Below are positions 19,183 through 21,800 of a stretch of 64,000 nt of DNA, piece by piece. The notes beneath the pieces are model-generated. The model was not told where the DNA came from, made no database searches, and saw only the letters and a list, made by a program, of their open reading frames with translations. A program made the position numbers and the translations under genes. Position 1 is the first letter of the stretch. Each line of letters begins with the position of its first letter. The stretch comes from Lysinibacillus sp. FSL W8-0992 (GTDB lineage: Bacteria > Bacillota > Bacilli > Bacillales_A > Planococcaceae). The stretch spans positions 3,534,001-3,598,000 of the forward strand of contig NZ_JBBOZQ010000001.1 in assembly GCF_038008685.1 (NCBI RefSeq), written 5' to 3'.

Positions 19183-19650
19183 TTAGCCAATCATTTTCTG
19201 TAAATTCGCCATTTCAATAGCTGATATTGCTGCGTCATAACCTTTATTACCAGATTTTGTCCCAGCGCGTTCAATTGCCTGCTCAATATTTTCAGTTGTG
19301 ACAACACCAAAAATAACTGGTATGTTAGTTGTAAGAGAAACGTTAGCTATGCCTTTTGCTGATTCGTTACAAACATAATCATAATGTGTTGTAGAGCCAC
19401 GAATAACTGTGCCAAGACCAATAATGGCATCATATTTTTTTGTTTCCGCTAGCTGTTTTGCAATAAATGGAATTTCAAATGCACCTGGTACCCACGCAAC
19501 ATCAATTAAATCCTCGTCTACACCATGACGTTTTAGCCCATCCATTGCACCGCTTAATAATTTACTAGTAATAAATTCATTAAATCGACCAACTACTACC
19601 GCTATTTTTAAATCATTGCCAATTAATTGTGCTTCAAATGTTTTTCCCAT
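19183..19650 (-). CDS. ribH: 6,7-dimethyl-8-ribityllumazine synthase
   Basis: 155 residues, normal length. [10 protein letters not shown], the [16 protein letters not shown] substrate site, the loop [11 protein letters not shown] with the catalytic histidine, and [12 protein letters not shown] are all present. It condenses the RibB product with 5-amino-6-ribitylaminouracil to form lumazine, the substrate of RibE. It is the last gene of the ribE-ribB-ribH unit, 17 bases after ribB. Confidence 0.97.
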
Positions 19651-19667: not shown

Positions 19668-20297
19668 TTACACTGTAAGTGAATTTTTTCCTTGTATTTG
19701 TTGACGACGATAGGCTGCTAATGCATCAATCGAAATCATTTTTAATTTGTGTTTTTCCGCATATTTGACTAAGTCATCAAAGCGAAGCATTTCACCATCA
19801 TCCCCCATGATTTCACAAATAACACCAGCTTGTATGCTTCGGCAAAGCCTTGCTAAATCGATAGTTGCCTCCGTATGCCCTCTACGTTCTAAAACACCAT
19901 TTTCCTTTGCTATAAGGGGAAATACATGCCCAGGTCTACGAAAATCAGTTGCTTGCGCTTGTGACTCTAGCATTTTTCGAATTGTCAACGCACGTTCAAA
20001 GGCGCTAATGCCTGTTTTTGTATCTTTGTAATCAATACTTACAGTAAATGCCGTTTGGTGATGATCTGTATTATTTATGACCATTGGATGCAACGCTAAT
20101 TGTTGTGCAAGCTCCTGTGAAATCGGCGTACAAATAAGCCCTCTTCCATATGTGGCCATAAAGTTTATCGTTTCTGGTGACATGAACTCTGCAAGGGCAA
20201 GTAAATCCCCTTCATTTTCACGATCTTCATCATCCACGACAACAATCATTTTGCCTTGTTTTAAATCTGCAATTGCTTCTTCAATTGAATGTAGCAA
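19668..20297 (-). CDS. ribB: 3,4-dihydroxy-2-butanone 4-phosphate synthase (RibB only)
   Basis: 209 residues covering just the RibB domain: [14 protein letters not shown] (metal/substrate acidic loop), [47 protein letters not shown]. It makes the four-carbon unit of riboflavin from ribulose 5-phosphate. In Bacillus the protein is usually a RibB-RibA fusion; here the reading frame stops right after ALAAYRRQQ, where the GTP cyclohydrolase II domain would begin, with the tail IQGKNSLTV. So RibA must be elsewhere. Confidence 0.95.
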
Positions 20298-20354: not shown

Positions 20355-20993
20355 TTAAAACCCATGCTTCGCTAAGTAATCTTTTGTAATGGTCGGTGAT
20401 TGCTGACCACGCTGTAGCTGGTGCATAATGTATTTACCAACTAAATCGGTCTCAATATTGACTGGTGATCCAACATTTTTTGTCCCTAATACGGTTTCCT
20501 TATATGTGTGTGGAATAAGCGATACGGTGACGCTGTTTTTTGCCACATGGAAGAGCGTTAAACTCGTTCCATCAATTGTGATTGAACCTTTAGGAATACA
20601 ATAGCAAGTTAACTCCTCTGAAAGTTCTATATCGATGTATACTGCATTGGCCATTGGACGTTTGCGTAATATTTTTCCCACTCCATCAACATGCCCTGAA
20701 ACAAAATGACCACCAAAACGTCCATTCGCAGGCATTGCACGCTCTAAATTTACTGCATTACCAACCGTGAGTTGCTGCAAATTTGTCGCTTTCACTGTTT
20801 CAGGCATTACGTCCATTGTCAGTTCCTGCTCATTATATTGTGTTACTGTCAAACACACGCCATTGACAGCTATACTATCTCCTAGCTGCACGTCCGATAC
20901 TATCTTTGGCGAAATAACAGTTATTTTCATACTTTGTCTATCGTTTTGCAAGGTTTTTACTGTACCAACATCCTCAATAATACCTGTAAACAC
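20355..20993 (-). CDS. ribE: Riboflavin synthase alpha subunit
   Basis: 212 residues beginning MFTGIIEDVGTVK, with two repeated lumazine-binding barrels (GDSIAVNGVCLTV in the first, KGSITIDGTSLTLFHV in the second). It dismutates two lumazines to riboflavin and the pyrimidine precursor. It is the first gene of the operon, with two FMN riboswitches and terminators upstream. ribD, which normally precedes it in Bacillus, is absent. Confidence 0.97.
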   Translation of the reverse strand: MFTGIIEDVGTVKTLQNDRQSMKITVISPKIVSDVQLGDSIAVNGVCLTVTQYNEQELTMDVMPETVKATNLQQLTVGNAVNLERAMPANGRFGGHFVSGHVDGVGKILRKRPMANAVYIDIELSEELTCYCIPKGSITIDGTSLTLFHVAKNSVTVSLIPHTYKETVLGTKNVGSPVNIETDLVGKYIMHQLQRGQQSPTITKDYLAKHGF

Positions 20994-21051: not shown

Positions 21052-21080
21052 AACAAAAAACCCCATATAAAAATGAGGTT
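21052..21080 (-). terminator. Terminator of the gene-proximal FMN riboswitch
   Basis: On the minus strand AACCTCAT/ATGGGGTT (21080-21073 with 21066-21059) followed by TTTTTT, between the proximal riboswitch and ribE. This is the expected expression platform for FMN-induced termination. Confidence 0.85.
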
Positions 21081-21154
21081 TGGGAGTTCTAATTCATAAG
21101 ACGTCACTAAATAAACCTAATGGAAATAAATTTTCCAAAGGCTACCATCTCATC

Positions 21155-21274
21155 GTTCTTCTCCCATCCAGACTATAACTGTCGGTTTTGGATTTGCACC
21201 AAATCAGCTTGCGCTCACGGACTTTGAATTGCTTCATCACCGCCGATTGGGAATTTCACCCTACCCCGAAGAAC
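21155..21274 (-). ncRNA. FMN riboswitch, gene-proximal copy
   Basis: On the minus strand the RFN consensus is clear: closing stem (TTCTTCGGGG...GGGAGAAGAA), AGGGTGAAATTCCC, ATCGGCGGTGATG, AAGTCCGTGAGC, TTTGGTGCAAATCC, CCGACAGT and GTCTGGATGGGAGAAG. It binds FMN and would switch the downstream terminator to lower rib expression. It is almost identical to the copy at 21404-21520. Confidence 0.97.
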
Positions 21275-21300
21275 AGATACCTATTAAATTTTTAACTTAA

Positions 21301-21333
21301 TAAAAAAACTCCCCAACGAAGGCGATGGGAAGT
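21301..21333 (-). terminator. Terminator of the distal FMN riboswitch
   Basis: On the minus strand ACTTCCCA/TGGGGAGT (21333-21326 with 21315-21308), 8 pairs including one G-U, followed by TTTTTTT. It lies between the two aptamers, so the distal aptamer has its own expression platform. Its sequence differs from the proximal terminator. Confidence 0.85.
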
Positions 21334-21403
21334 AGTTTTGAATATAAGCGTAGCCAAATAGACCTTTTAAAGTCATATGAATTTAAAAAGCTTACACATC
21401 TAC

Positions 21404-21520
21404 CCTTCTCCCATCCAGACTGTAACTGTCGGTTTTGGATTTGCACCAAATCAGCTTGCGCTCACGGACTTTGAATTACTTCATCACCGCCGATTGGGAA
21501 TTTCACCCTACCCTGAAGGA
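21404..21520 (-). ncRNA. FMN riboswitch, distal copy
   Basis: A second full RFN element about 130 bases upstream of the first. It has the same conserved blocks (AGGGTGAAATTCCC, ATCGGCGGTGATG, AAGTCCGTGAGC, CCGACAGT, GTCTGGATGGGAGAAG), with only a few base changes, mainly in the closing stem and one loop. Both are on the same strand and feed the same rib operon. Confidence 0.97.
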
Positions 21521-21740
21521 TATGTTTATTTAGTTACTTCATACGATAACATTATTTTAATACATTATCCACTTAAAATTTTTTAATGGCTATTTTGTGC
21601 AGTTTAATTGCCTTGGCACAATCCACATGTGCAAATTAAAGCAACCAGCTAATAATTGAGCGTATGAATAAGGAGCAAGTGACTTTGGGGATAATTTAAA
21701 ATAGAAACGTTTGCATGAACTTTTGAAGGGTTCATAAATA

Positions 21741-21800
21741 AATACGCTCTTTTAGTAGAAAGATGTACAGTAACCTTCATCTTAACTAAAAGAGCGTATT
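21741..21800. terminator. Long hairpin terminator between rib leader and uvrA-like gene
   Basis: A perfect 16-bp stem (arms 21741-21756 and 21785-21800) with a further AAGATG/CATCTT pairing inside. CTTTTTAATTTT follows on the + strand and TTATTTAT on the minus strand. It lies about 55 bases past the UvrA-like stop and most likely ends that transcript. Confidence 0.8.

Follow-up and report, generated by a model that had tools for sequence, protein, structure and literature searches.

The FMN riboswitch of ribD in Bacillus subtilis is a single-copy element of the same aptamer family and the same termination logic as the units described here, and tandem TPP riboswitches are known as independent aptamer-plus-platform units in series, with a more digital output. 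In the accessible portions of the literature, tandem TPP riboswitches are cited in PMC9481103 and PMC2258182; the former (RNA Biol 2022) also tallies tandem FMN switches (31 doublets and 4 triplets), defines a "pseudo-cooperative" class of independent units that bind the same ligand, and mentions quadruplets of glycine aptamers. A second survey (PMC12452182, Microb Genom 2025), likewise in its accessible text, reports that FMN doublets (87%) and triplets (13%) are enriched at ribE, ribB and ribH of the Bacillota. An FMN doublet ahead of ribE-ribB-ribH is an already documented arrangement, and the view of an earlier note on this DNA, that FMN switches in series are rarely noted, fails against these counts and against the singling out of this very operon. 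FMN arrays of more than three units do not appear in the accessible portions of the two surveys, and the name Lysinibacillus has 0 occurrences in the main text of PMC12452182.

Scanning of the window, i.e. the whole 64 kb stretch of DNA that was analyzed, with cmscan returned exactly two matches to RF00050 at the gathering threshold and nothing else. The features of the locus, all on the minus strand, are as follows, from the promoter side to the last gene.

21543..21571, minus strand: promoter-like block, TGGATA, 17-base spacer and extended -10 TGTTATCGT (TATCGT), with a predicted start near 21536
21524-21399, minus strand: FMN aptamer 1 (promoter side), RF00050, 114.6 bits, E 5.7e-26, model 1-138
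21408..21415, minus strand: GAUGGGAG of aptamer 1, predicted to pair as antiterminator with 21324-21331, duplex -13.2 kcal/mol
21340..21398, minus strand: linker 1 with a conserved hairpin (alignment of 28 genomes)
21302..21339, minus strand: intrinsic terminator T1 and U-run, -12.8 kcal/mol, 5' arm UUCCCAUC at 21331-21324
21277-21152, minus strand: FMN aptamer 2 (gene side), RF00050, 115.4 bits, E 3.4e-26, model 1-138
21095..21157, minus strand: linker 2 with a conserved stem and inner hairpin (alignment of 28 genomes)
21077..21086, minus strand: CUCCC and the first bases of T2, predicted to pair as antiterminator with 21169-21161
21053..21081, minus strand: intrinsic terminator T2 and U-run, hairpin 21081-21058, -9.1 kcal/mol
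20355..20993, minus strand: ribE, riboflavin synthase, ORF with GTG start, beginning MFTGIIED
19668..20297, minus strand: ribB, DHBP synthase, ORF of 209 aa with no fused GTP cyclohydrolase II domain
19183..19650, minus strand: ribH, lumazine synthase, ORF of 155 aa

We consider it highly likely that ribE-ribB-ribH has a single leader RNA on which two complete, transcription-terminating FMN riboswitches act in series. The pair precedes riboflavin synthesis genes, the location that goes with RF00050, and is widespread in the genus: a search of 32 genomes, the window's own included, with the covariance model revealed a same-strand FMN pair with starts 241-369 bases apart in 28 of them, with ribE downstream in every one (21 by the first motif, the other 7 reading MFTGLVED). 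Of the remaining four, two carry longer arrays (G008 and G030) and two a single match, namely G010, which is 86% complete, and G013, which has no GTP cyclohydrolase II match, so that the riboflavin pathway may be lost there.

The two aptamers of the window lie 121 bases apart, with no ORF of at least 80 aa between them among the window ORFs, and both cover the whole model with scores well above the RF00050 gathering score of 66.2. The earlier note had described two nearly identical RFN aptamers on the same strand before ribE, with coordinates that prove accurate within a few bases; degeneracy of one copy, which would have spoken against its reading, is not seen by the covariance model, with two full-length matches of about 115 bits each. 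Of the 126 aptamer positions, 13 differ between the two copies, and 10 of these fall in the outer ends of P1. When each unit was folded whole, the minimum-energy fold of unit 2 was the aptamer fold; for unit 1, the aptamer fold was not returned. Among the 56 aptamers of the 28 doublet genomes, P1 comprises 7-9 contiguous pairs in 56/56, and its letters are unit-specific and compensated (AUCCUUC/GAAGGGU vs. GUUCUUC/GAAGAAC in the window's genome), which argues for selection acting on closure of both aptamers.

Each aptamer is followed by a hairpin with a U-run in all 28 doublet genomes, the T1 stem being mostly ACUUCCC/GGGAAGU and the T2 stem mostly AAACCCC/GGGGUUU; the weakest of these terminators is T2 of G029, at -5.1 kcal/mol. 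Since a simple consensus scan for terminators detected T2 alone (1 found vs. 0.5 expected in shuffles), the T1 and T2 calls rest mainly on this conservation. Candidate antiterminators could be assigned to both units: the 5' arm of T1 is complementary to the 3' strand of its aptamer (GAUGGGAG with UUCCCAUC in the window), and in unit 2 the CUCCC directly before T2, invariant in 28/28 genomes, is able to pair with GGGAG. When these segments were shuffled with dinucleotide content preserved, the shuffle fraction of the pairing in the window's genome was 0.07 for unit 1 (≤0.05 in 15/28 genomes) and 0.125 for unit 2 (≤0.05 in 5/28); conservation thus gives the predicted antiterminator good support, and energy only moderate support. 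Changes on both sides of a consensus pair were seen in 2 of 25 pairs for linker 1 and T1 and in 3 of 18 for linker 2 and T2. By eye, the alignment gives both linkers a similar outline, comprising an outer stem, an inner hairpin and a stretch near AGGUUUAUUUG; from this common outline, the duplication seems to have taken in the whole unit, beyond the aptamer alone, and we surmise that the pair arose by duplicating such a unit without its promoter. The claims that a distinct U-tailed hairpin stands behind each aptamer, and that the locus comprises two complete switches arranged serially, with a separate platform for each, are thereby borne out by the terminators of all 28 genomes and by the unit-specific antiterminator strands. 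With P1 helices, terminators and linkers kept in all 28, the locus is best read as two OFF switches, both working, placed in series; the doublet is very probably functional.

In the mechanism that we infer from these sequences, which takes in FMN binding, the switching pairings, a single transcript and a multiplicative output, RNA polymerase would start just upstream of aptamer 1. With FMN bound, P1 of the aptamer would hold the GGAUGGGAGAAG strand, the antiterminator would not form, and T1 would stop transcription. In the absence of FMN, the GGAUGGGAGAAG strand would pair with the 5' side of T1 and polymerase would continue; a transcript past unit 1 would then face the same test at unit 2, where, without FMN, the corresponding strand would pair with the CUCCC just before T2 to allow read-through. 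Expression would thus approximate the product of two read-through probabilities, so that the half-point would fall, the curve would steepen modestly and the leakage would be squared. In a series model in which both switches have the same affinity K and terminate fully, the step from one unit to two shifts the half-point from K to 0.41 K, squares the leakage and narrows the 90-to-10% range from 81-fold to 40-fold, with an effective Hill coefficient of 1.19; from one to five units, the ranges are 81-, 40-, 32-, 29- and 27.5-fold, with a limit of about 22-fold. The main gain of doubling should therefore, under this model, be repression depth together with an earlier threshold. Of the expectation that tandem units steepen or widen the response and lower leakage, the lower leakage emerges as the larger predicted effect and the steepening holds in modest degree; a widened response would depend on unequal affinities, and the aptamer sequences show no sign of these.

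A widened response, or a two-input gate, would be expected if the two units differed in set point or in ligand, with FMN read by one and another flavin by the other. The platforms and P1 helices do differ in a conserved, unit-specific manner, and the stabilities of T1 and T2 are unequal, as differing set points would have it. However, within a genome the two aptamer cores are on average 2.5 differences apart in about 109 bases (28 genomes), the 56 aptamers all agree at 95 of 114 aligned columns, and these sequences gave no sign of an altered ligand pocket; we regard such a division of labor as unlikely. Rather less probable still is a second unit that is a redundant duplicate of little effect, kept by chance. 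The modest steepening predicted by the series model would fit with redundancy, but near-identical direct repeats are expected to be lost by recombination, and none of the 28 doublet genomes has lost a unit, a terminator or the closure of P1 despite this expectation, which argues against it. Two working switches in series remain our preferred reading.

That reading calls for both aptamers on one RNA. The promoter-like block is found in the form TRGATA-N14-TGTTATNGT before aptamer 1 in 28/28 doublet loci of the genus and between the aptamers in 0/28, where the best partial match reaches 7-10 of 13 positions; from this placement, both units are probably on one transcript. The block itself scores below the threshold of a simple consensus scan, which was uninformative here (2 sites found vs. 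3.2 expected in shuffles). The end of T1 and the core of aptamer 2 are separated by 35-48 bases in 18 of the 28 genomes, by 65-70 in 3 and by 106-169 in 7; the shortest gaps appear to leave little room for a separate inner promoter, and the longest may have space for one of another sequence. Transcripts that also start between the copies, so that the switches serve alternative promoters and do not simply act in series, would be favored by a weak 9-of-12 promoter-like site at 21370-21341 and by the seven long gaps, but we give this little credence, given promoter-like sites no commoner than in shuffles, the conserved block missing from the interval and the short gaps of most genomes, which together speak against two separately started elements; at the sequence level, no sign was found of the inner start that would have undone the earlier proposal. 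In five genomes (G003, G007, G015, G025 and G029), a related extra stretch of about 80-130 bases, with CCTCCGGAC and TTACGCCAA, lies between T1 and aptamer 2. Upstream of the promoter-like block, an inverted repeat AATACGCTCTTTTAGT at 21741-21800 is the probable terminator of the preceding gene, which we take to be UvrA-like.

Elsewhere in the window's genome, one further FMN element was found about 314 kb away, before a 195-aa membrane protein that presumably resembles the riboflavin transporter RibU. The sole GTP cyclohydrolase II match of this genome lies away from the ribE operon. Here ribA and ribD sit apart from that operon, beside an FAD-monooxygenase-like gene (L040 2183-4050; C1, about 3817-3819 kb), with no FMN match found within the L040 region, and in G001, G002 and G005 the closest FMN match is >15 kb from ribA. 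As judged by gene position, the first committed step apparently falls outside FMN riboswitch control.

The two aptamers of a genome are also, on average, closer to each other than aptamers from different genomes. The mean distance within a genome is 2.46 vs. 3.39 across genomes, and none of 5000 random pairings was as low, with relatedness ignored in this comparison. Of 14 disjoint pairs of genomes, selected in part with a ribE guide tree (21/28 genomes) and in part by eye, 6 favored concerted evolution, 1 went against it and 7 were ties (sign test 0.0625); concerted evolution of the two aptamers is thus suggestive only. At columns 5, 14, 41, 61 and 77 of an alignment of the genus aptamers, lineage-specific bases are common to both aptamers of one genome, for instance in G011, which suggests gene conversion between the copies.

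Outside the genus, 42 genomes had at least 3 FMN matches, of which 40 were examined (39 of the same family and 1 of another; G106 and G119 were left out). In 38 of these 40, two or more matches fell within about 420 bases, as doublets in 25 and as longer arrays in 13. An array in G008, a genome of the genus itself, has five FMN units at spacings of 201, 202, 202 and 202 bases (L042 1221-2145), and G048 (L077; contig of 4.0 Mb) and G092 (L084) have four units each with a period of 200-202 bases; no runs of N were found in the stretches read of these three arrays. Units 2-4 of G008, compared across the aptamer and a further 90 bases, show 1-3 differences from one another, pointing to a recent change in copy number, and unit 5 has another platform. 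The operon behind this array is ribD-ribE-ribBA-ribH, and a RibD-like protein is also encoded downstream of the arrays in G030, G048, G092 and G101. In all five genomes, TGCTGTATAAT occurs once per locus, just before the first unit. A terminator search over 53 units of 17 genomes returned: 1) a fitting hairpin for 41; 2) no hairpin for 4 (units 1 and 2 of G081, unit 2 of G087 and unit 1 of G141); 3) a poor or misplaced hairpin for 4 (unit 3 of G072, unit 3 of G053, unit 2 of G055 and unit 1 of G114); and 4) another hairpin taken by the search for 4 (unit 5 of G008, unit 4 of G092 and units 1 and 2 of G101), whose terminators, folded separately, gave -12.2, -10.6, -8.6 and -7.4 kcal/mol, respectively.

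With regard to frequency, the top counts among 261 genomes of the family, with eleven candidates scored per genome, were 7 FMN matches in G030 (partly an artefact), 6 in G008 and 5 each in G048 and G092; in a phylum sample of 398 genomes, with seven candidates scored, 3 had four matches per genome and none had more. A pattern scan of named genomes for one spacing class picked up six stretches, in Kurthia zopfii, K. sibirica, L. macroides, Bacillus ndiopicus, L. alkalisoli and Metalysinibacillus jejuensis. Several candidates were rejected. The seven matches of G030 resemble a duplicated operon, but the second set stands behind a run of N (L043 3951-6554) with ribD-ribE DNA identical to the first, and is read as a scaffolding artefact; the odd 418-base spacing in G101 reflects a unit cut by 100 N (L085 1791-1891). 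With N cutting a unit in G101 and a run of N ending at a partial unit in G030, the array counts in these two genomes are lower bounds. A seeming variant pair in G056 (39.8 and 35.1 bits) is a single FMN aptamer of 95.3 bits with an insertion of >150 bases in one stem (L089 1439-1731).

We speculate, with less than even confidence, that the FMN switch in this family is a copy-number-variable repeat whose units, from two to at least five, would be gained and lost by recombination, with array length, not affinity, setting leakage and threshold and with cores homogenized within each genome. As these repeats may break assemblies, arrays can be cut by assembly gaps, as with the N runs of G030 and G101, and hence be undercounted. 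Related bacteria, with 2, 3, 4 or 5 units on their riboflavin operons, amount to a natural experiment on riboswitch stacking: with steepness saturating in the model and leakage falling geometrically, measurements on these leaders would show which property selection acts on. The four- and five-unit arrays are newer than the doublet and are the part deserving specialist attention; the doublet itself is a well-conserved example with both platforms resolved.

Set against known systems, the doublet has a different layout from the cooperative dual aptamer of the glycine type, in which two aptamers share one platform, an arrangement ruled out here by the terminator behind each aptamer. With tandem TPP riboswitches, it has the layout of units in series in common, with another ligand and other genes. 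It has two features of the pseudo-cooperative class: same-ligand aptamers on the same strand with no ORF between them, and an expression platform for each (T1 and T2 in 28/28). Like the tandems of PMC9481103, it comprises complete same-ligand riboswitches in series before one ORF; in the accessible part of that survey the tandems are given as counts without loci, unlike the locus resolved here. Like the contiguous FMN riboswitches of PMC12452182, it shows the doublet layout on the same ribE-ribB-ribH operon; unlike that survey, as far as its accessible text goes, the present analysis adds the platforms of both units and FMN arrays of four and five units.
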